A DNA stretch of 64,000 nt from Gammaproteobacteria bacterium BRH_c0 (GTDB lineage: Bacteria > Pseudomonadota > Gammaproteobacteria > Pseudomonadales > Porticoccaceae): NCBI GenBank assembly GCA_000961645.1, contig LADM01000069.1:1-64000 (forward strand). The letters run 5' to 3'. Positions 6,604-64,000 of this stretch are shown here, in pieces (the first letter of the stretch is position 1; each line of letters starts with the position of its first letter). Below the pieces are notes generated by a model. That model had not been told where the DNA came from, did not search any database, and was given only the letters and a program-made list of their open reading frames with translations. Both the position numbers and the translations under genes were made by a program.

Positions 6604-6673
6604 TGACCCCGACCCACTGCCCATCGGTTGATCCGTTCACCGCTGGCAGCCACTCTCCGGCCAGGAGCCGTTA

Positions 6674-6973: not shown

Positions 6974-7028
6974 AGCCAAGCCATCCTGGATTCCCTCTGC
7001 GTGGACTGAACACGGATCAACAGTGAAT

Positions 7029-7754
7029 TTACAGCTGGAAGATTGTCTGCACCTCTGCTGCTGTGAGCTCCCTGCTCTGCCCCTCTCGCAGGGCTGGATC
7101 GAGCGGCAGGTTGCCGATGGCAATGCGCTGCAGGCCAAGCACCTTGTTGCGAAAGCGGCCAAACATGCGCTTGATCTGGTGGTACCGCCCTTCGATCAGG
7201 CAAACCTCGGCAACATGGTCGGAGTGGATTCGCAACTGCGCCGCGCGGGTGGTGATATCTTCGTAGGCAAAGTACATGCCGCTGGCAAAGGCCTCGACAT
7301 AGGCCTCGATATCGTCCGGGGCGATGGGGTTTTCCAGGGTTACCCTGTAGCGCTTGGGGATTTTCTGCTCCGGGCTGGTGAGCTGGCGCGACCAGCGGCC
7401 ATCATTGGTCAGCAGCACTAACCCCGAGGAATTGAAATCCAGCCGCCCGACTATATGCAGGCTGTGGCGCTGGGGATGATCAAGCAGATCAATCACCGTG
7501 GTGTGGCGCTTATCCAGCGTGGCGCTCACCACCCCAGCGGGCTTGTTGACCATCAGGTACAGGGGCGTATGGGCCTGGACCACCCGATTATCCACCACGA
7601 CATGGGTGAACTGGTCGATCAGCTGGTTGATACGGGTGGCGACCACGCCGTCCACCACCACCCGGCCACTGGCCACGATGGGGCGCACGTCGCTGCGGCT
7701 GATACCCAGATGGTTGCCGATAAAGCGGTCCAGGCGCGCACGTCTTGATTCCAT
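7029..7754 (-). CDS. rsuA: 16S rRNA pseudouridine synthase, RsuA family
   Basis: A 241-residue enzyme with an N-terminal S4 RNA-binding domain (LDRFIGNHLGISRSDVRPIV) and the RsuA-type catalytic domain; the catalytic aspartate is in GRLDFNSSGL, and the KRYRV and EGRYHQIKRM motifs follow. RsuA makes pseudouridine 516 in 16S rRNA; the RluB/E/F relatives act on 23S rRNA or tRNA, so the exact site is inferred. The start at 7754 is preferred over a longer frame because the S4 domain begins right after it and the 40 extra residues look like non-coding sequence. Confidence 0.82.
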   Translation of the reverse strand: MESRRARLDRFIGNHLGISRSDVRPIVASGRVVVDGVVATRINQLIDQFTHVVVDNRVVQAHTPLYLMVNKPAGVVSATLDKRHTTVIDLLDHPQRHSLHIVGRLDFNSSGLVLLTNDGRWSRQLTSPEQKIPKRYRVTLENPIAPDDIEAYVEAFASGMYFAYEDITTRAAQLRIHSDHVAEVCLIEGRYHQIKRMFGRFRNKVLGLQRIAIGNLPLDPALREGQSRELTAAEVQTIFQL

Positions 7755-7889
7755 AAAGCATTGCTCAGGTGCAAAAGGGTGGCCGGTAAAATAAACCGGG
7801 CATCCACCGGGAAGTTGCCGCAGCACAACCATAAACAGGTATATTGCCCGCCCTGCGGTCCGTATTATCCACACGGTGTATTGTATTTT

Positions 7890-36935: not shown

Positions 36936-37511
36936 TTATGTCACTCCAGGATTGGACTTCCGCTTTGCCCGTACTGTTTTTGCTCTCGCTGGCGCCGATA
37001 TTTCGGCGCCACTAGCCACCGTACCCACTGACGGACCGCCCCCGCGATCCAGTTCACCAATATCCAGCAGTGGCGAAGCATCGATACCCTCAGCGTCCAC
37101 CAGTGTCGCCAGGCGTTGCAGCGATGACAGAATCATCGCTTGCTCCCAATCTTCCAGAAACTGGAATTTATCGATCAGGCGCGTGTGCAGGGCCGTGGGG
37201 GCATTGTCGAGGATACGACGCCCCTCCTCTGTAAGGCTGACATACACCTTGCGTTTGTCCTGCTGTGACCGCTGCCGTTTCAGAAGCGCGCGTGCCTCAA
37301 GCCTGTCAACAATAGTGGTGACCGTCGCCTGGCTCAGGGACATACTCCTGGCAATATCGCCAATCGGTACCTCTACCTCACGCCTGACAGTCTGTAGCAG
37401 CAATAGCTGGGGCGCAGTCAGCCCGACTGTTTTGCTCAAATGCCTCGAATGCAAATCCGTGGCTCGAATCAGCCTCCGTAATGCCACCAGCACTTCATCA
37501 ATGATCTCCAT
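36936..37511 (-). CDS. MarR-family regulator of the ectoine operon (EctR-like)
   Basis: A 191-residue winged-helix protein. The MarR core has LTAPQLLLLQTV, the recognition region MSLSQATVTTIVDRLEARALLKR and the wing RSQQDKRKVYVSLTEEG. It is divergent from ectA, as is EctR1 in methylotrophic halophiles, where it represses the ectoine operon; that role here is inferred from position. The last about 40 residues (PARAKTVRAKRKSN) are a basic extension beyond the usual MarR length. Its leader contains the 14-bp tandem repeat. Confidence 0.85.
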   Translation of the reverse strand: MEIIDEVLVALRRLIRATDLHSRHLSKTVGLTAPQLLLLQTVRREVEVPIGDIARSMSLSQATVTTIVDRLEARALLKRQRSQQDKRKVYVSLTEEGRRILDNAPTALHTRLIDKFQFLEDWEQAMILSSLQRLATLVDAEGIDASPLLDIGELDRGGGPSVGTVASGAEISAPARAKTVRAKRKSNPGVT

Positions 37512-37640: not shown

Positions 37641-37672
37641 CATGGCCTCATCAGCACGCAAGCGGCATCGGT

Positions 37673-37700
37673 TTGAACAAAATATATGTTTAGTGTACAA
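37673..37700. promoter_or_regulatory. 28-bp palindrome in the ectR-ectA intergenic region
   Basis: TTGAACAA, a 12-base spacer and GTGTACAA. The same half-site, orientation and spacer length occur in three promoter regions of the catabolic island. It also fits a sigma-70 register (TTGAAC, 17 bases, TACAAT), so it may be a promoter as well as or instead of an operator. Confidence 0.5.
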
Positions 37701-37835
37701 TGGATTTCTCAATTGACAACGGAATGTCACATAACAGATAGCGAACAGCAATTATACTTAACCGGGTAATTAATCAGCTTTTCACAGTAGTTTTTGAATA
37801 AAAACTGACTTTGGATAATCTGACCTACCCTATAT

Positions 37836-50240: not shown

Positions 50241-51443
50241 TCAGATAAAGTCAGGGGCGGAAATATTGGGTTCAACGCCCAGCAGCGACTTGCCAAAAAT
50301 TTCGTAGCCCACATAGGGCAGGTTGGCCGTGTGCCGGGCACCCACATTGAGATCTCGCCAGATACGGGAAACTGCCTTTTCATCGGAGAAAGCACCCGAG
50401 CCGGCAAGAAACATCAGATCGTGCCCGGCTTTGGCCAGCAGGTCGATGGTGAATGAACCCTCTCCCTTGCTCATTGCCCGCTCCTGAGGAGTCATCGGCA
50501 CCCGGGTAGCGCCGGACACATCAATCAGACCGCAGGATTTTTCCACCAGCAACCGCGCCGCCTCAACACTGGCGGCAATGCGGCCAAACTCCGCCTGTAC
50601 CACGGCTGATTCCGATTGCTTGGCATAGGTGGTATAGACGATGGGCCGGTTGTGGCTTGCCCTGGTAACCTCCTCGAACAGCGCCTGGGCAGCACCAATC
50701 ACCATGCCGTGGGCAGTGGCCCGCAGGAAAGGCATAAAGGGCCAGTAATCGGAGGGCTCACCCACATATTTTTTGCCGTCCGGGTGGTTGCCGATACCCT
50801 TGGTAAAATCCATAAAGCGGTTTTTCGGTACAAACACATCCTTCACCACGCAGGTTTCCGAGCCGGTACCTTTCATGCCCACCATGAACCAGGTGTCTTC
50901 GATCGCCATGTCGGCCATGGGGATGTAGATGTTGCCAAAGCCCACCTGCTCGTCCTTGTCGTTGAGCACCTTGACGGCAAAGCCACCCCATTCCGCATGA
51001 CGTGAACCGGAGCAGTAGGCCCACCTGCCATTGACGATATAACCACCTTCTACCAGCCTCGCAGTGCCTGGAGGCGTGGCGGCACCGCAGATTGTGGGGT
51101 GATGGCCATTGGCGAAAATCTCTTCCTGCAGTTCATCCGGGCCAAGGCTGGCAATCCAGGTGGTGCCGTGCAGCACGGTATACACCCAGCCTACCGAGGC
51201 ATCACCCTTGCCCAGTTCGGCACCCACCCGCGCCATGGCGCTGGCAGATGTGCCATAGCCGTCCCAGCGTCGGGGTGATGCCATTTTCCAGAACCCGGCA
51301 TCCGTCAGCTCGCGGAAGACATCAGCGCTGATGCGACGATTGGCATCGAACTCAGGCCCCTTGCTGCGCAGCAACGGCTGCAATTCACGGGCGCGACCAA
51401 TCAGCTCCTTTTCAGCGGCTAGGTTGTAATCAGTAAATTTCAT
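50241..51443 (-). CDS. Acyl-CoA-dehydrogenase-fold flavin monooxygenase (HsaA-like)
   Basis: A 400-residue flavoprotein of the group D (p-hydroxyphenylacetate 3-hydroxylase C2/HsaA) type: AAEKELIGRARELQPLLR, FRELTDAGFWKMASPRRWDGYG, SVGWVYTVLHGTTWIASLG (in part) and a C-terminal helical bundle. Such enzymes hydroxylate a phenol next to an existing hydroxyl, using reduced flavin from a separate reductase, and so make a catechol for ring cleavage. No reductase gene is seen in the window. Start at 51443 follows GGAG. Confidence 0.8.
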   Translation of the reverse strand: MKFTDYNLAAEKELIGRARELQPLLRSKGPEFDANRRISADVFRELTDAGFWKMASPRRWDGYGTSASAMARVGAELGKGDASVGWVYTVLHGTTWIASLGPDELQEEIFANGHHPTICGAATPPGTARLVEGGYIVNGRWAYCSGSRHAEWGGFAVKVLNDKDEQVGFGNIYIPMADMAIEDTWFMVGMKGTGSETCVVKDVFVPKNRFMDFTKGIGNHPDGKKYVGEPSDYWPFMPFLRATAHGMVIGAAQALFEEVTRASHNRPIVYTTYAKQSESAVVQAEFGRIAASVEAARLLVEKSCGLIDVSGATRVPMTPQERAMSKGEGSFTIDLLAKAGHDLMFLAGSGAFSDEKAVSRIWRDLNVGARHTANLPYVGYEIFGKSLLGVEPNISAPDFI

Positions 51444-51574
51444 TCCTATCTCCTGCACATTCCGGTCAATTCATGTATTGGTTCCGGCTAACGTTGGCAC
51501 TGTTGAGGACTGCCTGGCTTTGCTCTGCCATCCGCGCTGACCGGTACAACTGCAAACTAGCACCATAAAACATA

Positions 51575-51602
51575 TTGAACAACTATTGTTTATTTTGTTC
51601 AA
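51575..51602. promoter_or_regulatory. 28-bp palindrome, site 1
   Basis: TTGAACAA, a 12-base AT-rich spacer and TTGTTCAA. The two arms are exact reverse complements. It lies 132 bases upstream of the monooxygenase start. Confidence 0.65.
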
Positions 51603-51857
51603 TACAGTTTTTTGATCTATATCAGTTGAAATGTCGTGCAGCTGGCAACGCAACCATCCATCAATTCTGAACCCCAGACTTAATAACCAATAATTTCAAT
51701 ATCTTAAGGTTAAGCATCCTGAATCCTGGCTACTGTACTGAGGTCTGTGACAGCCTCTATTCCAAGAGCCGCCCATCCTCCACCAGTCGATACTTTCCTT
51801 TATTGATCTGGATCAAGGAAGGAAGGCCGCCAGGAGAATAGATTGGCGGCATGTAGA

Positions 51858-51885
51858 TTGAACATATTGAACACATAATGTTCAA
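51858..51885. promoter_or_regulatory. 28-bp palindrome, site 2
   Basis: TTGAACAT, a 12-base spacer and ATGTTCAA, exact reverse complements; a third half-site TTGAACA lies inside the spacer (51867-51873) and makes a shorter TTGAACA-CATAA-TGTTCAA palindrome. It lies 122 bases upstream of the dioxygenase alpha start. Confidence 0.65.
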
Positions 51886-52006
51886 CGAGCATAAACAGGG
51901 CAGAAAACACTTGCCAGTCAGGCGAGACAAGCCAAAGGGATCCAGCAAGGCACGTCAGCAGACGTCACCCGGCACGCTTGTTCAGGCAGCAATCGAGGAA
52001 TCAGAC

Positions 52007-53398
52007 ATGTTAAATAAATCTACCCCGACCCTCCGGGACGGTACCCGAATCGAAGACCTCTTCAATCTGGAAACCCGCGAGGTTTCCCTCTCCACCATGT
52101 ACGATCCGGAAATCCACCAGATCGAGATGGAAAAGATCTTTACCAAGGTCTGGCTGCTGCTTGGCCATGCGTCAGAAATCCCCAAATCCGGTGACTACGT
52201 TGTGCGTTATATGGGCCAGGACGAGGTTATCGTTTCGCGGGATCGCAAAGACGAAATCCATGTCAGCCTCAACGTCTGCCCCCACCGCGGCATGCATGTC
52301 TGCACCGCCGAGTCCGGCAACGCCCAGGTACACAAATGTATCTATCACGGCTGGGCATTTCGCCCCGATGGCAGCTTTGTCGGCGCGCCGCTGGAAAAGG
52401 AAAAAATGCATGGCGAAATCTACCCCAAGGAAAAACTCGGTCTTAAAAAGGCCCGGGTACAGCTTTTCCACGGTCTGATTTTTGCCACCTGGAACCAGGA
52501 AGCTGCACCCCTGGAAGATCAGCTCGGCGACATGAAGTTCTACTACGACATCATGTTTGGCAAAACCCATGGCGGCATGGAAGTGCTCGGTGCCCCCCAG
52601 CGCCTGACCATTCCCGCCAACTGGAAAACAGCCGGTGAACAGGCCGCCTGCGATGGTTTCCATACCCTCACCCTGCACCGCTCGCAGTTTGATATTGGCA
52701 ACTTCGGCAATATCAGCGACACCATGGATGAGTTCATTCCCATCATGCAGGGCGTCAACGTGGCACAAAAAGGCAATGCCCTGCGCTGTATCTCTGCCGC
52801 TACCACCTTCACGTCACTGATCGGTTCCGGCGAGGATTTCAGCAAGCTGTCTGACCTGGAAAAGATTACCAAGCTGCCACCGCCCGGCATCGTCACCGAG
52901 CAGTTGCTGGCGGAAATGAAAGAGCGGCTCAGCCCTGAACAAATCCACGTCTGCTCCGTAGCGCCGCCCCAGGTCGGCAATATGTTCCCCAATGTGAATC
53001 TGCTGTTTATCTATGCACCGCTGCCGGATGGCACCCTTGGCTCGGGCTATGTAATCCACACCATCAACCCCATGGGGGCCGACAAATTCCAGTGGATCAC
53101 CTGGTTCCTGTGTGAAAAGGATACCCCTGAGGAGATCAAGGACATTATCCGCGCCGTGGCGGTACAGACCGGCGGCACGTCGGGACTGATCGAACAGGAC
53201 GACTCCGATACCTGGCCTCACATGACCATTGCCGCCAAGGGCGCCTGGGGGCGCACCGAAACCCTCAAATACCAGGCTATTGGCGGCGAGAACCGCCCTG
53301 AGGGCTGGCCCGACAAGGCCCACGTTTATGCAGGCCTGTCGAAGGACGATGCCCAGTGGCACTGGTGGCTGCAATACCACGAGCTGATGACCCAGTAA
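52007..53398 (+). CDS. Aromatic-ring-hydroxylating dioxygenase, alpha subunit
   Basis: A 463-residue Rieske oxygenase large subunit. Rieske ligands are C91 and H93 (CPHRG) and C111 and H114 (CIYHGW); the mononuclear iron ligands are H219 and H224 in CDGFHTLTLH. The length and a following beta subunit gene mark the alpha3beta3 dioxygenase type, which makes cis-dihydrodiols from aromatic rings. Start at 52007 follows GAGGAATCAG; a longer frame upstream crosses the palindrome region and is not used. Confidence 0.92.
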   Translation: MLNKSTPTLRDGTRIEDLFNLETREVSLSTMYDPEIHQIEMEKIFTKVWLLLGHASEIPKSGDYVVRYMGQDEVIVSRDRKDEIHVSLNVCPHRGMHVCTAESGNAQVHKCIYHGWAFRPDGSFVGAPLEKEKMHGEIYPKEKLGLKKARVQLFHGLIFATWNQEAAPLEDQLGDMKFYYDIMFGKTHGGMEVLGAPQRLTIPANWKTAGEQAACDGFHTLTLHRSQFDIGNFGNISDTMDEFIPIMQGVNVAQKGNALRCISAATTFTSLIGSGEDFSKLSDLEKITKLPPPGIVTEQLLAEMKERLSPEQIHVCSVAPPQVGNMFPNVNLLFIYAPLPDGTLGSGYVIHTINPMGADKFQWITWFLCEKDTPEEIKDIIRAVAVQTGGTSGLIEQDDSDTWPHMTIAAKGAWGRTETLKYQAIGGENRPEGWPDKAHVYAGLSKDDAQWHWWLQYHELMTQ

Positions 53399-53444
53399 TT
53401 GCCAGTCAATACCAGGATTTCACACCATTTTTGAGGTACGAAAC

Positions 53445-54014
53445 ATGAACAATACCGCCGAAAAAGTCGCACCGTTCGAGATTCCGCCCATCAACCTGCC
53501 CAAACCGACGGACTCGATTACCCACTACCAGATCCAGCAGTTCCTGCACCTGGATGCCTATCTGCTGGATCACAACATGCTGGCGGAGTGGCTGAATATC
53601 CTCGCCCCGGACCTGCGCTACTTTGTCCCCATTCGTCAGACACGGGAACGCAAGGACCGCGACAAGGAATTTTCCACCAAGCTCGGCCATATGGACGATA
53701 ACTTCCAGTCCATCGCCATGCGGGTTCACCGCCTGGTGAACACTGGTACCGCCTGGTCCGAAGATCCGGCGTCGCGGGTGCGCCGCTTTGTCACCAATGT
53801 GTCGGTATGGGAAACCGATGTACTGGGTGAATACGATGTCACCAGCTACCTGTTGCTAACACGCAACCGTTTTTACCAGGACGATTATCACCTGCTCAGC
53901 GCCGAACGGATCGACCGGATCCGTCGCAAAGGGGAAAGTTTCGAACTGGTAAGCCGCGAGGTGAGGATGGACCAGAGTGTACTGGGAATGCCCAATCTGG
54001 CGATCTTCCTGTAA
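53445..54014 (+). CDS. Aromatic-ring-hydroxylating dioxygenase, beta subunit
   Basis: A 189-residue NTF2-fold small subunit with the family pattern: FLHLDAYLLDHNMLAEWLNI, LRYFVPIRQTRERKD, then VRRFVTNVSVWET and YLLLTRNRFYQDD. It completes the dioxygenase with the alpha gene 47 bases upstream. No ferredoxin or reductase follows; the ferredoxin at 60.2 kb is a candidate partner. Confidence 0.9.
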   Translation: MNNTAEKVAPFEIPPINLPKPTDSITHYQIQQFLHLDAYLLDHNMLAEWLNILAPDLRYFVPIRQTRERKDRDKEFSTKLGHMDDNFQSIAMRVHRLVNTGTAWSEDPASRVRRFVTNVSVWETDVLGEYDVTSYLLLTRNRFYQDDYHLLSAERIDRIRRKGESFELVSREVRMDQSVLGMPNLAIFL

Positions 54015-54020
54015 CAGCAC

Positions 54021-54056
54021 GCACGGCTGCCGATCTTCCGAGATCGGCAGCCGTGC
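54021..54056 (+). other. Perfect 16-bp intercistronic hairpin
   Basis: GCACGGCTGCCGATCT pairs exactly with AGATCGGCAGCCGTGC around a TCCG loop. There is no T-run, and the P450 gene begins 27 bases later, so it is not a simple terminator. It may set mRNA stability or dosage between the dioxygenase and P450 genes. Confidence 0.85.
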
Positions 54057-54082
54057 AGTGATCATTCACTGAGGAATATAAA

Positions 54083-55306
54083 ATGACCGTACATAACAGC
54101 CAACCCGGCAAGATTCCCGATCACATCCCCAAGCACCTTATTCAGGATTTTCCGCTGAAAATGGGCGTTTATGCCGATGAAAACCCGTTTGATCGCATAG
54201 TCCCCGAGGTGTGTGAAGGGCCGGATGTGATCTATGCCCTCGATGTTTTGCCCGGCGGTCGCGGTGACGCGTGGATTTTCCGCCGCCAGGAGGATAACCG
54301 CGAGATTTACAACGATACCGAACATTTTTCCAACAAGGGCTTCAGCGGTTTTGCCGAGCTGATCGGCGAGCACTGGTCAACCATTCCTGCCGAAACCGAC
54401 GCACCGGAGCACACCTATTTTCGCACCCTGCTCAACCCGGTGTTTGCACCCGGCTCCATGGCGAAAATGGAAGGCACAGTACGCGATGCAGCACTGCGGA
54501 CCCTGAAGCGGCTTGAGGGCAAAAAAGAATGTGACTTCATGGATGATTTCGCCTTTCCCTTTCCTGTCGGTGTAGTCCTCGATCTGATGGGGCTGCCCCA
54601 TGAACGGATGGACGAGTTTTTAACCTGGGAGCGGATGCTGCTGCACTCCGGCAAGGCCGAGGTAATGGCCGACGGTGTGCGCAAGGTCACCGGCTACCTG
54701 CGCGAAGTGATCGCCGAGCGCAAGCAAAATCCCGGTGACGACCTGATCAGCTTTGCCATCAAGTCTGATGTCAACGGCCGCAAAATGACCGATGACGAAC
54801 TGCTGGGTTACGCTTTTAATTTTTATATTGGCGGGCTGGATACTGTGTCTGCCAATCTTGGCAATTTTTTCCTGCACCTGGCCACCAACCTCGATCACCA
54901 GCGGGAGCTGCGGCAGCACCCGGAAAAAATCCGCGAAGCCATTGAGGAATTCCTGCGGGTCTTTGCTGCAGTCAGTACCACCCGCATCTGCATCAAGGAA
55001 AAAACCATCCGCGGCATTACCGTCAAGCCCGGCGACAAGGTGCAGATGAACACCACTGTGGCGAATCGGGACAAGCACGTCTACGAAAACCCCCATGAGG
55101 TGATCCTTGACCGCAATCCGTCCCATGTCACCTTTGCCACAGGCCCTCACCACTGCCTGGGCGTACATCTGGCGCGTCGCGAACTGCGCATCGCCATGGA
55201 AGAGTTCTTCAAGGCCATCCCGGAGTTCCGGCTCAAACCCGGCGCCAAGGTCAGCTGCCAGATCGGTGGCATTATCCAGCCGCGCACTCTGCCTATCGTC
55301 TGGTAA
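54083..55306 (+). CDS. Cytochrome P450 (bacterial, ferredoxin-dependent type)
   Basis: A 407-residue heme monooxygenase. The I-helix oxygen-binding block is GGLDTVSANLG, the ExxR motif lies in EEFLRVF, and the heme cysteine is C358 in FATGPHHCLGVHLARREL. No reductase domain is fused, so it takes electrons from a ferredoxin and ferredoxin reductase; the [3Fe-4S]-type ferredoxin at 60.2 kb is the best local candidate. It shares a transcript direction with the dioxygenase genes. Confidence 0.94.
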   Translation: MTVHNSQPGKIPDHIPKHLIQDFPLKMGVYADENPFDRIVPEVCEGPDVIYALDVLPGGRGDAWIFRRQEDNREIYNDTEHFSNKGFSGFAELIGEHWSTIPAETDAPEHTYFRTLLNPVFAPGSMAKMEGTVRDAALRTLKRLEGKKECDFMDDFAFPFPVGVVLDLMGLPHERMDEFLTWERMLLHSGKAEVMADGVRKVTGYLREVIAERKQNPGDDLISFAIKSDVNGRKMTDDELLGYAFNFYIGGLDTVSANLGNFFLHLATNLDHQRELRQHPEKIREAIEEFLRVFAAVSTTRICIKEKTIRGITVKPGDKVQMNTTVANRDKHVYENPHEVILDRNPSHVTFATGPHHCLGVHLARRELRIAMEEFFKAIPEFRLKPGAKVSCQIGGIIQPRTLPIVW

Positions 55307-55334
55307 CTAGCTTGGTAACTGCAGTCTGGTAACT
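55301..55334. repeat. Three direct copies of TGGTAACT
   Basis: The octamer occurs at 55301-55308, 55313-55320 and 55327-55334. The first copy includes the P450 stop codon TAA, and the others lie just downstream, as if short duplications had copied the gene end. Confidence 0.7.
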
Positions 55335-55397
55335 GCTCCCGGCCACACTGCTTGCAGCGGCGTGGCCGGGACTATGGGCATCACCCGGGACAGCAAG

Positions 55398-55814
55398 ATG
55401 ATTGATAAAGCGCTGATAGAAAATTCATTCGAGCAGGCTGCCGAAACACTGGGCGATATCACGCCACTGGTGTACGAGCAGTTTTTTGCGCAATTCCCCG
55501 AAGCTGAAGAACTGTTCAATATCAAGGGGCCCCAGTTCAACGCTGACCTGAAAAACAAGATGGTGAGCGACGCGCTCTATACTTTCATGGAATATCTCGA
55601 CACACCGGAGGAGGTGGAAATTGTTTTCAAGTACACCATTCCCCAGCATGTGGACCTGAATATTCCCATGAAGTATTTCACCGGGTTGCTCAGTGCTGTT
55701 GCGCAGGTAGTTTGCGATACGACTCCCGATCAGGACAAAGCCGCCACCAGTGCAAGCTGGAGCGCACTGCTGGCGAAGTTTGATGCACTGGTGGTGAAAT
55801 ACTCAACTGAATGA
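55398..55814 (+). CDS. Single-domain globin
   Basis: A 138-residue protein with the bacterial globin order: ENSFEQAAETLGDITPLVYEQFF and FPEAEELFN for helices A-C, then a proximal-histidine block IPQHVDLNIPMKYFTGLLSAVAQVV, in part, and SWSALLAKFDALV for helix H. The histidine-to-tyrosine spacing (9) resembles that of Vitreoscilla-type globins (10). A start at 55398 is used; an in-frame ATG at 55374 would add eight residues. It lies directly after the P450 and could supply or sense oxygen for the oxygenases. Not confirmed by alignment. Confidence 0.72.
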   Translation: MIDKALIENSFEQAAETLGDITPLVYEQFFAQFPEAEELFNIKGPQFNADLKNKMVSDALYTFMEYLDTPEEVEIVFKYTIPQHVDLNIPMKYFTGLLSAVAQVVCDTTPDQDKAATSASWSALLAKFDALVVKYSTE

Positions 55815-55890
55815 GCCGTTGTTGAAAAACGGGCAGATCGGCTCAGTTGATGAACTGACATGATGGATTGAAAAGATTTTTTCTCGCTGT

Positions 55891-55953
55891 GTGGACTCCT
55901 ATACGTTTGTGGGTAGCAACTTCAACGGACCTCCCAAGGGAGGAGAAGTCCAC
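55891..55953. other. Structured element between converging genes
   Basis: Outer arms GTGGACT (55891-55897) and AGTCCAC (55947-55953) enclose an inner hairpin CCTCCC-AA-GGGAGG (55930-55943). A perfect palindrome TTGTTTAAACAA lies at 55976-55987. This could be a bidirectional terminator, a small RNA or the trace of a mobile element; I cannot identify it. Confidence 0.5.
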
Positions 55954-55997
55954 TCATCGAGAGATAAAAAGGCCTTGTTGTTTAAACAAAACCCCGA

Positions 55998-56762
55998 TTA
56001 AAGCGTCATCCCACCATCCAGCGGGATAACAGCCCCGGTGATAAAACTCCCAGCCCGGGAAGCAAGGTGAATCACCGAACCGACAATATCGTCCTCCTTA
56101 CCCAGGCGTCGCCGCGGCACCAGCTGCAAAATGGCTGGCAGCTGTTCGTCGGGGATCTGCGTTAACCTGGAAGGAAAAAATCCGGGCGCAATGGCGTTGA
56201 CCGTAATATTTTCGCCGCCCAACCGCTTGCCCAGTGAACCAGTCAAGTGATGCAAACCTGCCTTTGCCGCCTGGTAGGAGTAATTCTCCTTGGGACCGAC
56301 CCGGGTGCCACCCATGGAGCCAATATTCACAACGGCAGAAGGGTAGTCCGCAGTGGCACCGGCCCGCAGCAAGGGCAGCAGTGACTGGGTCAGAAAAAAG
56401 ACCGACTTCAGATTCAGGTCAACCACATCATCCCAGCCCTGCTCGGTGAACTCCCCCAGTGGCGCGTCATACATGGCGCCGGCGTTGTTGACCAGGATAT
56501 GCAGCATGCTCTCACGCTCACCCAGGGCTGAAGCCACAGCCTCCACACCCGGCATGGAGGAGAGATCTCCTGCCAAGGGCAAGCACTGGCCAAATGCCGA
56601 CAGTTCCGTCGCGATAGCGCTACAGGTATCAGGGTTACGCCCGACGATATAGGTTTTGGCCCCGTGTTCCACCAGGCCCTTGGCAATCATGTAACCGATA
56701 CCGCTGGTGCCGCCGGTCACCAGGGCGACACGGCCCCGCACTGAAAAAAGTTCACTCACCAT
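55998..56762 (-). CDS. Short-chain dehydrogenase/reductase (1)
   Basis: A 254-residue SDR. The cofactor motif is TGGTSGIGY near the start; NNAGAM is present, the catalytic Ser is in VNIGSMGG, and the pair Tyr-Lys is in SYQAAKAGLHH. Substrate unknown; oxidation of a dihydrodiol or a hydroxyacyl group fits the island. It is separated from the next SDR by a terminator. Confidence 0.92.
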   Translation of the reverse strand: MVSELFSVRGRVALVTGGTSGIGYMIAKGLVEHGAKTYIVGRNPDTCSAIATELSAFGQCLPLAGDLSSMPGVEAVASALGERESMLHILVNNAGAMYDAPLGEFTEQGWDDVVDLNLKSVFFLTQSLLPLLRAGATADYPSAVVNIGSMGGTRVGPKENYSYQAAKAGLHHLTGSLGKRLGGENITVNAIAPGFFPSRLTQIPDEQLPAILQLVPRRRLGKEDDIVGSVIHLASRAGSFITGAVIPLDGGMTL

Positions 56763-56796
56763 GGTTTCCTCTTATGGTTATGGCTTTTGCCGCTAC

Positions 56797-56827
56797 AAAA
56801 AAGCCAGCCGGAGAACATCGGGCTGGC
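56797..56827 (-). terminator. Terminator between the two SDR genes
   Basis: On the minus strand, GCCAGCC pairs with GGCTGGC around an 11-base loop, followed by TTTTTT. SDR 1 therefore needs its own promoter. Confidence 0.82.
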
Positions 56828-56853
56828 CGTGGAATTACAGTCATTCAATGGTG

Positions 56854-57639
56854 TCAGTGACAGCCAAACATGCCGCCATCAATGATGTGCTCGCCACCGG
56901 TGATATAGGCGCCTGCACGGGAGCTGAGGAAGATGCACAGGCCGACAATATCCTCAGCAGTGCCATAACGGGCCAGCGGTACACGGGCGAGGAATTCCTG
57001 GGAGGTGTCTTCCTCCTTGCGGATATGGGCGGTCATCTTGGTGGGGAAATAACCCGGCACCACCGCATTAACGGTGATATTGTCCGGCGCCAGCTCCGCC
57101 GCCAGCACCCGTGACAGATGGTGAATGGCCGCCTTGCTGGCCACATAGGAATAGGCTGGCAGCGGCTCCACAGCCTTGCCCGCCAGGGAGCCGATATTGA
57201 TCACCCGTGCAGGGTTGTCGCTGTTATCGGCTCCGGAATTTTTCAGCAGGGGGAGCAACTCTCGGATCAGGGTAAATGGCCCCTGCACATTCACCGCCAT
57301 CACCGGCGCCCAGGCCTTGTCGGGGAACGATTCAAGCGGCGCACCCCAGGTGCGCCCGGCGTTGTTGATGAGGATGTCGAGCTTATCCTCCAGCGCCTTG
57401 ATTTTATTGGCCAGCTCCACCACCGCTTCGGGCGGATCGAGATCCGCTGCAATGCCGATACAGGTACCAATCCTGCTCATCTCGGCGGCGGCGGCTTCAC
57501 AATCCGCAGGCTTGCGCGAAGTGATATAGACTTTCGCCCCTGCCTGCAGCAATCCTTCGGCGATCATGCGGCCCATGCCGGATGCGCCACCGGTAACCAG
57601 CGCCACTTTACCGCTGATATCAAATAATCCCGTGCTCAT
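56854..57639 (-). CDS. Short-chain dehydrogenase/reductase (2)
   Basis: A 261-residue SDR with TGGASGMGR, NNAGRTWGAP, INIGSLAG and SYVASKAAIHHLSR. It resembles SDR 1 in layout but is not a tandem copy. A strong GAGGAG ribosome site precedes its start, and the ADH gene lies 23 bases upstream, so it is co-transcribed with that gene. Confidence 0.92.
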   Translation of the reverse strand: MSTGLFDISGKVALVTGGASGMGRMIAEGLLQAGAKVYITSRKPADCEAAAAEMSRIGTCIGIAADLDPPEAVVELANKIKALEDKLDILINNAGRTWGAPLESFPDKAWAPVMAVNVQGPFTLIRELLPLLKNSGADNSDNPARVINIGSLAGKAVEPLPAYSYVASKAAIHHLSRVLAAELAPDNITVNAVVPGYFPTKMTAHIRKEEDTSQEFLARVPLARYGTAEDIVGLCIFLSSRAGAYITGGEHIIDGGMFGCH

Positions 57640-57661
57640 GATGTCTCCTCGAATCCACTAC

Positions 57662-58663
57662 TCAAATATTAACAACGATCTTGCCCATACCGTGGTCATT
57701 CTGCAAATACAGCAGGGCGTCCACGGCCTGGTCGAGATTGAACTGGCTGTCGATCACCGGCTTGATATTGCGCTCCGCCACAAAGGCCATCATGGCGCGG
57801 AAATCGTCCAGCGTGCCCATGGCGGAGCCGTGGATGGTGGCGTGGCGGAAGAACAGCTCCGGAGCCACCACCTGGAACTTGGCGCCACCGGTGGGGCCGT
57901 AGATAACCACCCGGGCACCCATATTCAAACAGCGGCTGTATTCGGCAAAGGATACGGCGGGCGCCCCATCAATCACCACATCGACGCTGCCAGCAAGCGC
58001 CGCGAGGGACTTGCCCCACTTCTCCTGCTTGTATACCACGCCGCCCTTCGCACCCAGAGCCACAGCCTGGTCAATTTTGTCCTGCGCGCCACTGGTGACG
58101 TAGACCTCAGCGCCCATGGCGACGGCAAAGATCAGGGCCTGGATAGCAACGCCACCACCGATGCCGGTGATCAGCACCTTCTCTCCGGCCTTGAGATTAC
58201 CCTTGGTGGTCAGGCAGCGCCAGGCAGTCAGGCCTGCCAGGGGAATCGCAGCTGCCTCTGCAAAGGTCAGCCCGGCGGGTTTTGCCACCACCGCATCGGC
58301 AGGCACGCAAATATATTCCGCCAGGGTGCCGGGATAGGGCATCCCCAGACAGCCAAATTCCGGGCTTGGGTAGTCGGGATTGTCACCCCAGTTGGCGGCG
58401 GGATAAAGCACAACCTCCCGACCAACCATGTCGGCATCAACGCCCTCGCCCACCGCATCCACCACACCGGCACCATCAGCCCCAAGAATGGCAGGCAACT
58501 GCATGCCGGGGTACTGCCCCAGGCTGACCCACAGCTCGCGGTGGTTGAGTGCCGCCGCCTTGAGCGCGACGCGCACCTCCCCTGCGGCCGGGACAGGGGT
58601 ATCCCTCTCTGTCACCGTGGCGCTTTGTGGCCCTTGCGGGGCGGTCAGAACCAGTGCTTTCAT
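57662..58663 (-). CDS. Medium-chain zinc-type alcohol dehydrogenase / quinone oxidoreductase
   Basis: A 333-residue MDR-family protein. The GroES-like N-domain has VALKAAALNHRELWVSLGQYPGMQLPAILGADGAGVV (seen as AALNHRELW and ILGADGAGVV). The cofactor loop is ITGIGGGVAIQAL. The zinc-ligand pattern of true ADHs (GHE) is not obvious, so it may be a zinc-free quinone-oxidoreductase type. Start at 58663 follows TGAGG. Confidence 0.85.
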   Translation of the reverse strand: MKALVLTAPQGPQSATVTERDTPVPAAGEVRVALKAAALNHRELWVSLGQYPGMQLPAILGADGAGVVDAVGEGVDADMVGREVVLYPAANWGDNPDYPSPEFGCLGMPYPGTLAEYICVPADAVVAKPAGLTFAEAAAIPLAGLTAWRCLTTKGNLKAGEKVLITGIGGGVAIQALIFAVAMGAEVYVTSGAQDKIDQAVALGAKGGVVYKQEKWGKSLAALAGSVDVVIDGAPAVSFAEYSRCLNMGARVVIYGPTGGAKFQVVAPELFFRHATIHGSAMGTLDDFRAMMAFVAERNIKPVIDSQFNLDQAVDALLYLQNDHGMGKIVVNI

Positions 58664-58706
58664 CCACTACCTCAGTTGTCTCTGTCATGTCGAAAAGGCA
58701 GACATA

Positions 58707-58741
58707 AAACAGCGGGGCTTGTTGCCAAACCCCGCTGTTTG
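58707..58741 (-). terminator. Terminator after the acyl-CoA dehydrogenase gene
   Basis: A perfect 11-bp stem AAACAGCGGGG with CCCCGCTGTTT around a 12-base loop, followed by a short T-run on the minus strand. The gene upstream is therefore probably monocistronic. Confidence 0.85.
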
Positions 58742-58769
58742 AACCGCCAGCTGGCCGATCAGATCAGGA

Positions 58770-59933
58770 TCAGAAAGAACGCGGCATACCCAGCATCTCA
58801 GCAATGGCGTTGCGGCACATTTCGTTGGTGATCGGCCCTATGCGCCACAGGCGGCTGTCGCGCCAGTAACGCTGCATATCGGTTTCTGCCGAGTAACCCA
58901 TCCCGCCCAGAATCTGTATGCCGAGATCGGCAGCCCTGTTGGCGTATTCGGAGGCCTGCAACTTTAACATAGTCGACTCCATATGGCAGGGCTTGCCGCT
59001 AGTCATCAACCAGGCGCAGTGGTTCATCATCAGCTCGATGGAATAACGCCAGGAGGCAATATCCGCCAGGTAATGCTGGAGAGCCTGGAAATGGCCGATG
59101 GTTTTACCAAAGGCCTTGCGCTGGTTCATATACTCGATGGCGTCCTCCTGAATACCATCCATCACCCCGAGGCAGAAAGCTGCCACCATCAGGCGCTCGT
59201 TATTGAGGGTCGGCAACAGGGTGTACCAGGCATTGTGAGGCTCGGCAAGCACCTGTTCATCGGTGACCAGGACATTCTCAAAATGCACCGTGCAGGAACC
59301 CATGGAACGCATACCCAGCTTGGGCAGCGGGGTGATGGTGATGCCGGGCTGTTTGGCCGGCACCCAGAACAGACTGACCCCTTGATGACGCTTTTCCACA
59401 TCCTTCTTAGTACGGGCCAGCACCAGCAGGTAATCCGCCACATGGGCAGAAGAACTCCAGATCTTCTCGCCATTGAGAATCCAGCCGCCATCGCCACGTA
59501 CACCCTCAGTGCGCAGGGCACCGAGCACATCGGTACCGCCATCCGGCTCGGTAAAGGCAATCGCTGCCCGCAGCTGGCCCGTGGCAATCTTCGGCAGGAA
59601 TTCTTTCTTTTGCGCATCCGTACCATAGACGCCAATGGATTTTGACCCGGCAAAGGAGGTAATACCCCAGATCCAGGCAAGACCGCCCAGAGGCCGGGCG
59701 AGTTCACGGGCAAGAATCATCTGGGTGATAACGTCGCCACCCTGACCGTCATAGTCTTCAGAAATGCCGATACCGTGAAATCCTGCCTCTGTGAACTTGT
59801 CCCATAGCTCGAAAGGATAATCGTGTTCTTTCGCCTCCAGTTCGCGGGCCCAGCTTTTGGGAAGCTCCTTGCTCACCCATTTACGGGTGAAGTCCTGAAA
59901 CGCGACATATTCTTCCTGCATTTGAAAATCCAT
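58770..59933 (-). CDS. Acyl-CoA dehydrogenase
   Basis: A 387-residue flavoprotein with the family blocks AFTEPDGGTDVLGALRTEGV and WSSSAHVADYLLVLARTKK and, near the end, QILGGMGYSAETDMQRYWRDSRLWRIG. A glutamate base is expected in the loop before the C-terminal helices but is not clear by eye. It oxidises an acyl-CoA to the 2-enoyl-CoA, which the MaoC pair could hydrate. It has a good ribosome site (GGAGAG). Confidence 0.9.
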   Translation of the reverse strand: MDFQMQEEYVAFQDFTRKWVSKELPKSWARELEAKEHDYPFELWDKFTEAGFHGIGISEDYDGQGGDVITQMILARELARPLGGLAWIWGITSFAGSKSIGVYGTDAQKKEFLPKIATGQLRAAIAFTEPDGGTDVLGALRTEGVRGDGGWILNGEKIWSSSAHVADYLLVLARTKKDVEKRHQGVSLFWVPAKQPGITITPLPKLGMRSMGSCTVHFENVLVTDEQVLAEPHNAWYTLLPTLNNERLMVAAFCLGVMDGIQEDAIEYMNQRKAFGKTIGHFQALQHYLADIASWRYSIELMMNHCAWLMTSGKPCHMESTMLKLQASEYANRAADLGIQILGGMGYSAETDMQRYWRDSRLWRIGPITNEMCRNAIAEMLGMPRSF

Positions 59934-60246
59934 TGCTCTCTCCGGTTGGGTTTGCCAGTATGCCTGTGGGCTGGCTGATAAATGCTGAAGCCATTCCGTG
60001 TTGCGGAATTCTCTGCTCTCGCCCCAATCCCAACACCTATCTTTTTATAGATCAACTTGCGGGACAGACTGGCTCGGCAGGATTGAACATTTATACTCAA
60101 TTATGTACAATCGTTTCTGCTTACAGAACGGTGATAATGCAGGCCATGCTGGGTATACCCGCCCTTCCTGTGTGATAATCGCTCCTGAATCATCAAGCCC
60201 ATCGCCCCCAGCGATATCAAAACCCAGACATGATTAGAGGTGTAAA
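59934..60246. promoter_or_regulatory. Divergent promoter region of acyl-CoA dehydrogenase and ferredoxin genes
   Basis: About 310 bases between divergent genes. It holds the 28-bp palindrome at 60083-60110 and a separate inverted repeat ATTCCG-TGTTG-CGGAAT (59993-60009). Confidence 0.65.
60083..60110. promoter_or_regulatory. 28-bp palindrome, site 3
   Basis: TTGAACAT, a 12-base spacer and ATGTACAA: same half-sites and spacing as sites 1 and 2. It is preceded by GGCAGGATT, also seen at site 4. It also reads TTGAAC, 17 bases, TACAAT, a plausible sigma-70 promoter toward the ferredoxin gene. Confidence 0.65.
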
Positions 60247-60465
60247 GTGAACGACGCGACCAGAATCAAAGTGAAAGTGATCAAAAGCGCCTGCTGCGCC
60301 TATGGTCTGTGTGCAGAAATCTGCCCTGATATCTACAAGTTGGACGAAAACGGTATCGCCTACGTGGAAGACGAACTGGTTCCCGAAGGCATGGAAGAAC
60401 TGGCCCGTGAAGGCGCCGCCGCCTGCCCCCAGCTTGCCATCACCGTAACCGAAGTGACCGATTAA
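60247..60465 (+). CDS. Single-cluster ferredoxin, [3Fe-4S] type
   Basis: A 72-residue ferredoxin with cysteines C16, C22, C26 and C60 in the pattern C-x5-C-x3-CP...CP; the position of a fourth cluster ligand is Y19. This is the [3Fe-4S] layout common in ferredoxins of bacterial P450 systems; C17 beside C16 could be an alternative ligand. It lies apart from the P450 gene but is divergent from the acyl-CoA dehydrogenase in the same island. Electron delivery to the P450 or dioxygenase is inferred. Confidence 0.88.
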   Translation: MNDATRIKVKVIKSACCAYGLCAEICPDIYKLDENGIAYVEDELVPEGMEELAREGAAACPQLAITVTEVTD

Positions 60466-60490
60466 GCTTTGTCAGGCTACCCCGATCACA

Positions 60491-60524
60491 CCAAAACGCC
60501 CCGCTGACCAGCGGGGCGTTTTGG
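60491..60524. terminator. Bidirectional terminator between ferredoxin and MFS genes
   Basis: A perfect 15-bp stem CCAAAACGCCCCGCT with AGCGGGGCGTTTTGG around a GACC loop, with T-rich arms on each strand. It serves both converging genes. Confidence 0.9.
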
Positions 60525-60547
60525 TTTGGGGCTACCAGGGCGAGTAC

Positions 60548-61696
60548 TTACAGCCCCCGTCGCTCCCTGACCTGCGCGGCCAACTGCCAGGCAAAGACCA
60601 TCAGCGCAGCCAACGCAATGGCGATACTCATGCACAGAAACACAAAGCGCGGCGATGAATCGCCAAGCCCGTGGGCTATGCCGTCGAGCAATAGCGGGGT
60701 GGCAAACTGGCCAAGAGAGGCCGCTGTCGCCACCACCCCCATGGCCCCGATCACACTGCCACCCTTCACCACTGTGGTGGCGGAGAAAAACAGGTAGGGC
60801 ATCAGAAAGCCATTGCCAAAGCCGATGGCCAGCAACGCCACGATGGTGGCAGGCAGGGTGTGGGCGCTGGTCAGCAGCCAGTAACCAACCGCACCCATCA
60901 CCAGTGTCGCGAAGATAAAGTAGCGCCCCAGCAGACTCCTGACCCGCACTCCGAGAAAGCCGGTCACAAAGCTTGCCGCCGTGAGACAGGAAATGGCTAT
61001 GCCCGTCTCGCGGGAGCCGCCAATGGCGTTTTCTGAAATAAACAAGGCAATATTGACCGGCACAGCGTAGATGGCCAGCAACTGCACAAACACCGCCACT
61101 GCCCACCAGTAGACCTGAATCGGCAGTCTGGCTGGGATAGCCAGGGTCTGCGCAGCGGCTGGTGCCGCGTGAATATTGGCCAAAGACAGGGCTATCACCA
61201 CCAGTCCTGTGGCATACACAGCAAAACCGTAGCGCCAGCTGTAAACCGTCAGGTAGCCCACGGCGATATTGGCGCAGATGCCAAAAAAGCTGGTCACTGA
61301 AGACGACCAGCCCATCATCCGCAGGCGCTCACGCCCGGAAAAGTACTCGGCAATCAGTCCGGACGACATGGGCATCAGCACGCCAATCCCCACCCCCAGC
61401 ATCAGGCGCATGAAAAACAGCAGCTCAAAACTGTTGGCAAGACCGCCACCCAGACCACCAGCCACATAAAAGCACAGGCCGCCAATCAGCAGGCGTCGTG
61501 TACCAAGCCGATGGCTGAGCCAGCCCGCCAGCGGTGCGATAAACATCATGGTCAAGGCGGGCGCCGTCAGCAGGGCCTTGATCTGGGTCGGATGAATATG
61601 GGGGAAGGCGGCGGCAATCTCCGACAGCGCCGGGGCAATGGCGGCACTGGCAAATACGGTCAATAGCGAAATCGACAGTATCGTCACTCTCAGCAT
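60548..61696 (-). CDS. MFS transporter
   Basis: A 382-residue inner-membrane protein with about 12 hydrophobic helices and the MFS loop GWLSHRLGTRRLLIGG between helices 2 and 3. It may import or export a substrate or product of the island; dit clusters also contain an MFS permease. It has its own promoter region (220 bases to the next gene). Confidence 0.88.
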   Translation of the reverse strand: MLRVTILSISLLTVFASAAIAPALSEIAAAFPHIHPTQIKALLTAPALTMMFIAPLAGWLSHRLGTRRLLIGGLCFYVAGGLGGGLANSFELLFFMRLMLGVGIGVLMPMSSGLIAEYFSGRERLRMMGWSSSVTSFFGICANIAVGYLTVYSWRYGFAVYATGLVVIALSLANIHAAPAAAQTLAIPARLPIQVYWWAVAVFVQLLAIYAVPVNIALFISENAIGGSRETGIAISCLTAASFVTGFLGVRVRSLLGRYFIFATLVMGAVGYWLLTSAHTLPATIVALLAIGFGNGFLMPYLFFSATTVVKGGSVIGAMGVVATAASLGQFATPLLLDGIAHGLGDSSPRFVFLCMSIAIALAALMVFAWQLAAQVRERRGL

Positions 61697-61748
61697 GGTG
61701 AATTCCCTGAAAAGGCACAGAAAGGTGGGCTACTACAGGCGCTACAAT

Positions 61749-61783
61749 CTGCTCCTGGTCATCACCTGCTCCTGGCCATCATT
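61749..61783. repeat. Imperfect direct repeat upstream of the MFS gene
   Basis: CTGCTCCTGGTCATCA and CTGCTCCTGGCCATCA, 19 bases apart, differ at one position. No role can be assigned. Confidence 0.55.
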
Positions 61784-61841
61784 AGTGGCTTGCCCTAGCA
61801 TTGGCAATAATGGCCAGACCAATTGCACCAAACGCTGGCGG

Positions 61842-61877
61842 AAAAAATCAGGGGGAGTCCATGGACTCCCCCTGATT
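61842..61877 (-). terminator. Terminator after the extradiol dioxygenase gene
   Basis: A perfect 14-bp stem (AATCAGGGGGAGTC with GACTCCCCCTGATT) around CATG, followed by TTTTT on the minus strand. Confidence 0.92.
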
Positions 61878-61916
61878 GCCTGGCTTTAGCTTGAAACCAA
61901 CCTGTCAGTGCTGATC

Positions 61917-62855
61917 TCAGGCCTGCTCAAGGTTATCGGTAAACCCGGCGGGGACATCCGGGCCCCACAGGTAGAAGGAGTCTTCCGGGCCAAGATCGGA
62001 ATCTTTCCAGTCGACATTGGCAGGAATGTAGTCCATACCGGCAGAATACTCAGTCCAGCTACCCCAGGGATCGCGCACATAGTGGAAGTAGTTGGAACCC
62101 AGTACATGACGCCCCAGACCCCAGCTGTAGTCAAAGCCATTGAGCGCCATGTGGTTGGCGCCAACGCCCACTTCATTGACGGAGCTCACTTCCCAGCTGG
62201 TGTGGTGCAGACCGGGCCCAGTGCCACCCAACAGGGCGATGGTGTGGTGATCACTGCCATGGGGCGCATGCATGAAGGCAACGATATGCAATGAACGGTC
62301 CGACAGGCGCAGGCCGAGCACATCCCGGTAGAAGTTGATGCCGTCATCAAGATCGCCGGTAAACATTGCCAGGTGGGACAACCTGCGAGGACGGGTTCGC
62401 TCGCACTCACTGCGCAAGGGGGCAGCGCGTTTGTCGCTGGAGCCACCATTGGCATCGAACGGCGCCAGTTCATTGTTGGCGGTACGGGCGGCGATGCGAA
62501 TTTCCAGAGGCAGGCCCATGGGGTCGGCAAAACGCACTGACTGGTCATCGCCTTCGAAGCTCACACCCTGCTTGTCGAGATGCTCCTTGAAACGCGGGAG
62601 GTCGTCCGCAAAGCAGCCAAAGCACAGGCCGGCGAGCTTTTTCGGTGTGCCCTGCCTGATAATTCCCCAGCGCTGGGAGCCGCCGTAGCAATACAGTCCC
62701 AGGGTTGCACCTTCTTCCTTAACCTCGAGACCGAACAGGTCGAAGTACTTTTTGGCTTCGGCCAGATCCGGGACATCCATCACGAAATGATCCAGTGAAT
62801 GAACGCCCAGAACGCCCTGACGGCGGATTTCCTGCTGGTTACTTGCTTGGGTCAT
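61917..62855 (-). CDS. Extradiol ring-cleavage dioxygenase (two-domain VOC type)
   Basis: A 312-residue enzyme with duplicated VOC modules, as in BphC/HsaC. Predicted iron(II) ligands are H161 (LSHLAMF), H217 (or H218, LHHTSWEV) and E269 (WTEYSAG). The C-terminal signature FHYVRDPWGSWTEY is present. It cleaves a catechol next to the hydroxyls; the N-terminal module lacks the ligand set, as expected. It lies 58 bases downstream of the fumarylacetoacetase-family gene and shares its transcript. Confidence 0.85.
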   Translation of the reverse strand: MTQASNQQEIRRQGVLGVHSLDHFVMDVPDLAEAKKYFDLFGLEVKEEGATLGLYCYGGSQRWGIIRQGTPKKLAGLCFGCFADDLPRFKEHLDKQGVSFEGDDQSVRFADPMGLPLEIRIAARTANNELAPFDANGGSSDKRAAPLRSECERTRPRRLSHLAMFTGDLDDGINFYRDVLGLRLSDRSLHIVAFMHAPHGSDHHTIALLGGTGPGLHHTSWEVSSVNEVGVGANHMALNGFDYSWGLGRHVLGSNYFHYVRDPWGSWTEYSAGMDYIPANVDWKDSDLGPEDSFYLWGPDVPAGFTDNLEQA

Positions 62856-62912
62856 AGCTGACTCCTCCCGATGTATTGGTTATGTTCGTGCAATCCTGAG
62901 GCTGCGGAGTGC

Positions 62913-63773
62913 TTACTCCTCGTCTTCAATACCGTTGCTGAGCAAGCCGAGGCCTTCGATCTCAACTTCACAGATATCGCCCGGCTTCATGTACAGCGGC
63001 GGCTTGTGGAAGTGGCCGACGCCGGATGGAGTACCCATCACCAGCACATCACCGGCTTCGAGGGTAATGGCCTGGCTCATCAGGTGAATCACGTTGGCAA
63101 CGTCAAAAATCAGCTGGTCGGTATTGGAGGACTGCACTACCTGACCGTTGAGGCGGGTCTCAATTTTGAGGCCGCTGGCGCCCGGTGGCACTTCGTCCGG
63201 GGTGACCAGCTCGGGGCCGAAGGCACCGGTGCCGTCAAAGGTCTTGCCCACTGTCCACTGGCTGGTGCGAATCTGGTAGTCGCGCACGGAGCCATCGTTA
63301 AACACGGAATAGCCAGCAACATAATCCAGCGCATCGGCGAGGGGAATATGGCGGCCACCCTTGCCCAGCACAGCAACCAACTCACCTTCGTAATCGAGCT
63401 GATGAGAGATGCGGGGGCGAACGATATTGGCCTTGTGGCCGATCAGGCTGGTGTTGAAGCGGGTGAAGATGGTTGGGTAGTCAGGCAGGTCGAGCCCGGC
63501 TTCCTTGGCGTGGTCCTTGTAGTTCAGGCCCAGGCAGAAGATTTTGGTGGGGTTGCTCAGGGGTGGCAGCACCTCAACCTGGTCGATATCGACGGCATTG
63601 CCCTTGGCCAGGATGTCGCCCGCTTTGGCCAGAGCCGCTGAACCCTGGCGCACCAGGCTGTCGAGGCTGCCGGGGTAGCCGGCATCGGTTTCGACCAGTC
63701 CAGCAAAGGTGCCATTTTGGCCCTTGACCGCCAAACCCTGTTTACCGTCTTTTTTGAATGATAGAAAACGCAT
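62913..63773 (-). CDS. Fumarylacetoacetate hydrolase family protein
   Basis: A 286-residue FAH-superfamily protein with IFCLGLNYKDHAKEAG, the acidic metal ligands in DYEGELVAVLGKGG and a late VMGTPSGVGHFHKPP loop. Relatives hydrolyse or decarboxylate acylpyruvate-like products of meta-cleavage (for example 2-hydroxyhepta-2,4-dienedioate isomerase/decarboxylase). Being upstream of the extradiol gene, it probably works on the ring-cleavage product. Its leader carries a long hairpin. Confidence 0.88.
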   Translation of the reverse strand: MRFLSFKKDGKQGLAVKGQNGTFAGLVETDAGYPGSLDSLVRQGSAALAKAGDILAKGNAVDIDQVEVLPPLSNPTKIFCLGLNYKDHAKEAGLDLPDYPTIFTRFNTSLIGHKANIVRPRISHQLDYEGELVAVLGKGGRHIPLADALDYVAGYSVFNDGSVRDYQIRTSQWTVGKTFDGTGAFGPELVTPDEVPPGASGLKIETRLNGQVVQSSNTDQLIFDVANVIHLMSQAITLEAGDVLVMGTPSGVGHFHKPPLYMKPGDICEVEIEGLGLLSNGIEDEE

Positions 63774-63807
63774 GAGTCAATTCTTCCCGATAGTGGATCA
63801 CAATCCG

Positions 63808-63846
63808 CAGGCTGGGCCAGGCTTCACACAATCCTGGCCCAGCCTG
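63808..63846 (-). other. Leader hairpin of the FAH-family gene
   Basis: A perfect 14-bp GC-rich stem (CAGGCTGGGCCAGG with CCTGGCCCAGCCTG) around an 11-base loop, 35-73 bases upstream of the gene start. No T-run, so termination is not obvious. Confidence 0.8.
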
Positions 63847-63952
63847 CAATGAAATGGTGCCTGGGATCCATTAGGAACCGCCAGGACGACCGGTAGTCAA
63901 CCTGCCCAACCGCGCAAACTGTCGCTAACTGCACTGGTTGGAAGAGGCAGGA

Positions 63953-63980
63953 TTATACACTTACTCGCCATGTTGTACAT
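63953..63980 (-). promoter_or_regulatory. 28-bp palindrome, site 4 (degenerate), promoter of the FAH/extradiol operon
   Basis: TTATACAC, a 12-base spacer and TTGTACAT. The left arm is the weakest match, but spacing and the TGTACA half-site agree with site 3, and both are preceded by GGCAGGATT. Read on the minus strand it gives ATGTAC, 17 bases, TATAAT, with a perfect -10, pointing at the FAH-family gene. Confidence 0.55.
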
Positions 63981-64000
63981 TTATAGCATCCGGGCCATTC

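Follow-up and report, generated by a model that had tools for sequence, protein, structure and literature searches.

KstR, the TetR-family repressor of cholesterol catabolism, acts on a ring-degradation regulon and recognizes the motif TNNAACNNGTTNNA. TetR repressors that bind long inverted repeats at catabolic promoters are also known: AtuR and RdmA, which act in acyclic terpene and diffusible signal factor (DSF) catabolism in Pseudomonas, repress a catabolic cluster from 13-bp inverted repeats by the -10 element and are released with a pathway compound (PMC9973270). Regulators of the IclR family, which share with the present case a connection to aromatic catabolism, have operators defined as GKTYCRY-W3-4-RYGRAMC or TGRAACA-N1-2-TGTTYCA (PMC8222616). 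One IclR-family member, PheR, represses the phenanthrene operon of Sphingobium SHPJ-2 from a 44-bp footprint over the transcription start of this ring-hydroxylating dioxygenase operon (PMC13273656). Here we describe a 39-bp palindromic element in a stretch of 64,000 nucleotides (the window) at the start of contig LADM01000069.1 of Gammaproteobacteria bacterium BRH_c0, a member of the Porticoccaceae. We propose that two copies of this element are operators of a small catabolic regulon and that they are most likely read by the TetR-family protein encoded elsewhere in the genome at C129:36821-37534, a reading to which we give a probability of roughly 0.72. The literature found by the searches made holds no description of this operator.

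The initial annotation had noted four 28-bp inverted repeats with a 12-nt spacer, starting at 51575, 51858, 60083 and 63953 (sites 1 to 4), as one motif class fitting a dimeric repressor with half-sites two helical turns apart. All four positions are correct, and the perfect 8-bp arms claimed for sites 1 and 2 are real: both are exact 8-N12-8 inverted repeats (TTGAACAA-N12-TTGTTCAA at 51575-51602 and TTGAACAT-N12-ATGTTCAA at 51858-51885). At site 3 (60083-60110) 7 of the 8 arm positions are complementary, with one mismatch, and at site 4 (63953-63980) 5 of 8, with three mismatches. A repressor operator is the best reading for sites 1 and 2, but the element there is not a single pair of half-sites two turns apart. 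It consists of four interleaved half-sites within 39 bp, L1-N-L2-N5-R1-N-R2, or ATTGTACA-N-ATTGAACA-N5-TGTTCAAT-N-TGTACAAT, around the palindromic core TACA-N-ATTGAACA-N5-TGTTCAAT-N-TGTA; the N12 palindrome seen earlier pairs half-sites 2 and 4 at site 1 and half-sites 1 and 3 at site 2. The most conserved positions are ACA in the outer half-sites and TTGAA in the inner ones. Each side of the element, with its two half-sites, also forms a single imperfect 15-bp palindrome (TGTACATATTGAACA), so the sequence alone is compatible with more than one placement of dimers. The two operators and their predicted target genes are as follows:

51565-51603, operator 1, upstream of the minus-strand HsaA-like gene: ATAAAACA T ATTGAACA ACTAT TGTTTATT T TGTTCAAT; contains site 1
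51857-51895, operator 2, upstream of the Rieske alpha gene: ATTGAACA T ATTGAACA CATAA TGTTCAAC G AGCATAAA; contains site 2
50241-51458, minus strand, HsaA-like flavin-dependent oxygenase with acyl-CoA dehydrogenase fold (PF08028, PF02771); predicted target of operator 1
52007-53398, plus strand, Rieske ring-hydroxylating oxygenase alpha subunit (PF00355, PF00848); predicted target of operator 2
53445-54014, plus strand, ring-hydroxylating oxygenase beta subunit (PF00866), in the Rieske alpha gene run
54083-55306, plus strand, cytochrome P450 (PF00067), in the same gene run

Operators 1 and 2 match at 28 and 26 of the 32 half-site positions and score 41.5 and 40.7 bits, respectively, when each is left out of the model (operator 1 with E about 2e-5 by the model); operator 2 is nearly identical in the congener G001 (NAT127). 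The first ten operator sites scored in this leave-one-out manner gave 24-43 bits, whereas shuffled windows peaked at about 10 bits, and 15 sites gave 22-46 bits. Elsewhere in 637 kb of loci, the only stretches above 14 bits were two matches inside coding sequence, both selected by the model itself. The operators lie roughly 90-130 bp upstream of start codons.

This arrangement sets the element apart from the systems described above. The AtuR arms, AGCAAGCGCTTGG and its inverse, stand 40 bp apart, whereas the 17-bp arms of the present operator stand 5 bp apart and are unrelated in sequence. The Pseudomonas regulator gene also lies next to its target (PMC9973270), which the C129 TetR gene does not in the own genome. 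IclR operators have a similar half-site and repeated boxes, but these are spaced by N1-2 or arranged as three alternating boxes (PMC8222616); the inner half-sites here are N5 apart, outside the IclR definition, and no IclR gene accompanies the operator. The PheR core, GCAACG, is unrelated to it as well (PMC13273656). For KstR, the likeness is that of a repressor of a ring-degradation regulon with weak profile similarity: the C129 protein scores 44.5 bits against the curated profile NF033703, whose cut-off is 280. The KstR motif differs from the present operator.

An exact search for TTGAACA-N14-TGTTCAA finds 2 places in the 3.53-Mb assembly (140 contigs, 94% complete), namely sites 1 and 2, and none for a reversed control pattern. 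Allowing up to 3 mismatches raises the count to 23, most of them weak, with 1 for the control, and such relaxed searches also yield C29:5879, C29:3336 and 37672. As a motif, this simple N14 palindrome was rejected, since it catches coding matches and the one before ectABC (37672) as well and does not join the same half-sites at site 1 as at site 2. Genome searches instead used a model of the operator built from sequence only. In the own genome this model finds six operators, with none further up to E = 5 among the 150 of 522 first-look candidates that were scored. In addition to the two in the window, they lie at C29:5870, C29:3327, C88:20761 and C88:23963, in the same four-half-site register, which recurs in related genomes. 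All six adjoin genes for a Rieske dioxygenase, an HsaA-like oxygenase or a ferredoxin reductase, or neighboring catabolic genes. The window operators stand in front of the HsaA-like and Rieske alpha genes; those on C29 stand by a CoA-transferase gene with a second Rieske alpha gene and by a ferredoxin reductase gene; and those on C88 stand by an HsaA-like oxygenase gene and by a pair of genes, for a phosphatase-family protein and a third Rieske alpha subunit. By the criterion of the initial annotation, a regulon would be supported if a genome-wide scan gave a short list limited to catabolic promoters, and such a list is what the scan returned.

Convincing operator sites occur in 3 of 112 genomes of the family: the own genome (G000), G001 and G014 (UBA4495). 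G001 has four sites, two of which (C88) lie outside the training set. Matches in G099 and G119 are weak and fall within coding sequence, and were taken as false positives. Beyond the family, a possible site of 25.6 bits in Sphingobium (L022:7764) extends over the start of an apparent extradiol dioxygenase gene, and plasmids of Croceicoccus marinus and Novosphingobium resinovorum, neither of which was used in training the matrix, carry operators of 44.9 and 37.4 bits immediately upstream of a gene homologous to the Rieske gene.

The scan of island genes in the window turned up no regulator gene. We listed and compared every TetR gene of G000, G001 and G014, and the best candidate is C129:36821-37534, which encodes a TetR_N helix-turn-helix (PF00440, 61.5 bits versus a cut-off of 24) and is probably the operator reader, since it is present in all three operator-bearing genomes (contig C99 in G001, C58 in G014), adjoins an operator in G014 and shares a plasmid gene run with the operator. 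In G014, the next gene after the TetR gene is the homologue of window gene 50241-51458, and an operator-like site of 26 bits separates the two; the same locus also carries a 9/10 FNR-like box. Among plasmids, the C129 protein best matched records of Croceicoccus marinus, Novosphingobium resinovorum, Caulobacter FWC26 and Massilia putida, which are also the records that best match the Rieske protein. On the Croceicoccus and Novosphingobium plasmids the TetR gene (product WP_069709814 in N. resinovorum) lies within a dioxygenase gene run that starts at the operator. The arrangement typical of the TetR family, a palindromic operator at the regulated promoter with the regulator gene near its targets, is thus found in G014 and on two plasmids.

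Several points weigh against this assignment. Neither the own genome nor G001 has an operator adjoining the TetR gene. The Caulobacter plasmid carries a TetR homologue, and no recognizable four-half-site operator was found on it; the Massilia plasmid likewise has the homologue, with N13 variants only and no four-half-site operator. The recognition-helix stretch VARGTLYRYF is identical in all three genomes, but RGTLYRYF is a common helix among TetR proteins, so this identity counts for little. The listing of regulators covered two families, TetR and IclR, and the own-genome search extended to the fraction of first-look candidates given above. Finally, the C29 and C88 operators showed no FNR-type box of the kind described below. 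The Massilia variants, at L202:13867 and L203:7942, are inverted repeats of the type ATTGAACA-N13-TGTTCAAT before catabolic genes, one of them a Rieske gene; they show just two clear half-sites and are one base shorter.

A second TetR protein, encoded at C7:75061-75765 on the window contig, could instead read a real operator. Among 112 family and 369 class genomes its close homologues were found only in G000 and G014, both operator-bearing; in G014 the homologue lies among catabolic genes on an operator-bearing contig, and in G001 contig ends hide the place where one would lie, which accounts for its absence there. It was our initial first choice and was downgraded by its different recognition helix, VSRQMIHNRF, and by the plasmid comparison, as neither operator-bearing plasmid, that of Croceicoccus or that of Novosphingobium, appears among the matches listed for it; moreover, its own intergenic region holds no operator. 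We consider this assignment improbable. The gene itself (L019:11061-11765) encodes a TetR_C_7 protein and stands head to head with a tannase-like gene. It is similarly unlikely that a protein of another family (IclR, MarR, LysR, a sigma-54 activator or other) reads the operator, possibly as an activator. The distance from operator to start codon would also suit an activator, the regulator listing covered TetR and IclR only, and both a three-box layout and a TGRAACA half-site occur among IclR sites, although group 2 IclR half-sites are N1-2 rather than N5 apart (PMC8222616). The sole IclR protein, however, is encoded on C95, a contig without an operator, and was rejected as the regulator; sigma-54 promoters were likewise discarded, as no sigma-54-like sequence near the operators exceeds 9/12 and none is convincing. 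The regulator gene common to both operator-bearing plasmid clusters is a TetR gene, in keeping with the C129 protein as the reader.

That the repeats are chance, or plain -35/-10 hexamers at 17-bp spacing with no operator at all, is very improbable overall, and for sites 1 and 2 it is refuted. TTGAAC-N17-TACAAT is a good sigma-70 promoter and does cover site 3 and the match before ectABC, just as TGTACA-N16-TATAAT on the minus strand covers site 4. However, two hexamers would leave a fixed register of four half-sites unexplained; moreover, sites 1 and 2 have 39-bp scores far above background, belong to a set of six sites found at catabolic genes only, are conserved, and have counterparts recovered independently on sphingomonad plasmids. 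The initial annotation could not separate operator from promoter by eye. At sites 3 and 4 this ambiguity resolves toward promoters, and the four repeats do not form one class:

60082-60111, site 3, TTGAAC-N17-TACAAT on the plus strand and TGTACA-N16-TTCAAT on the minus strand; promoter-like
63952-63981, minus strand, site 4, TGTACA-N16-TATAAT toward 62913-63773; promoter-like

Sites 3 and 4 are near background in the operator model, with best scores of 9.6 and 1.6 bits, and both present sigma-70 hexamers 16-18 bp apart ahead of a gene; the plus-strand hexamers of site 3 precede a small ferredoxin gene (60247-60465). In the G001 counterpart of site 3 the promoter-like hexamers are kept and the inverted repeat is lost. 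For both sites, an ordinary sigma-70 promoter is the likeliest identity. The match before ectABC (37672-37701), which agrees at 14 of 16 positions, scores 13.5 bits and lies beside a MarR-family gene (36936-37511), reads TTGAAC-N17-TACAAT and is also better read as a sigma-70 promoter than as an operator. The flank GGCAGGATT that had been pointed out as common to sites 3 and 4 is real, and is shared because both read TGTACA-N16-TWYAATCCTGCC on the minus strand (60082-60117 and 63946-63981), ahead of 58770-59933 and 62913-63773; these minus-strand elements are possibly related promoters.

Further elements lie at the main dioxygenase promoter, by operator 2, and near operator 1:

51803-51816, FNR-type box TTGATCTGGATCAA, centered 66.5 bp upstream of the operator 2 center
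51839-51844, plus strand, putative -10 element TAGATT, conserved in G001 and at the class II FNR promoter distance
51612-51625, FNR-like box TTGATCTATATCAG (9/10), 34.5 bp from the operator 1 center; not conserved in G001 and uncertain

The box at 51803-51816 is the sole 10/10 match to TTGAT-N4-ATCAA in the 64-kb window. A perfect box stands 65.5-66.5 bp from the operator center at the main Rieske promoter in three genomes, the other two being G001 (L060:12529-12542) and G014 (L021:6779-6792), and each is the sole perfect box in its locus. Between the own genome and G001 the sequence is conserved from this box through the operator, and the leader beyond is not. The genome encodes Fnr at C129:23976-24692 (NF008365, 286 bits versus a cut-off of 228). 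Class II FNR geometry, in which the box is centered at -41.5 from the transcription start, places the -10 element at TAGATT. The operator would then span about +6 to +45, either overlapping the promoter or lying immediately after it; predicted transcription starts fall near 51851 and near 51577. This layout suggests a mechanism in which Fnr or a relative binds the upstream box and activates the main dioxygenase promoter, while the TetR protein, probably as more than one dimer, would sit on the operator and block RNA polymerase in a roadblock type of repression. A substrate or pathway intermediate may then release the TetR protein, relieving repression. More tentatively, and with somewhat less than even confidence, we suggest that these proteins constitute an uncharacterized TetR subfamily that acts on a 39-bp operator, probably as two dimers, and is tied to a Rieske/P450 gene set in marine Gammaproteobacteria and on sphingomonad plasmids, with an Fnr-type oxygen switch at the gammaproteobacterial dioxygenase promoter.

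The genes around the operators offer some further observations. Behind the dioxygenase and P450 genes lies a globin-family gene (55362-55814). G001 encodes a similar small protein at the corresponding position (L060:14900-15325), and Novosphingobium lentum has one close to a P450 gene (L023:14916-15386). Contig C29 (L018, 12 kb) carries two near-identical Rieske alpha/beta pairs, at 1-1498 (cut by the contig end) and 5998-7993, a doubling that reflects either a recent duplication or an assembly effect. The same contig encodes, at L018:3461-4438, a flavin reductase like that of p-hydroxyphenylacetate hydroxylase (NF045919, below cut-off), with a long C-terminal extension resembling that of the Acinetobacter enzyme. 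The small ferredoxin next to this gene set is reminiscent of diterpenoid (resin acid) dioxygenase systems, which we offer as a lead only.

Once its effector has been identified, the pair of operator and candidate regulator could be used as a biosensor component. For the biology of the organism, a single oxygenase promoter appears to combine an oxygen-sensing activator with a substrate-sensing repressor. The regulon joins genes on several contigs, and thereby provides a compact target list for an uncharacterized ring-oxidation pathway in marine Porticoccaceae.

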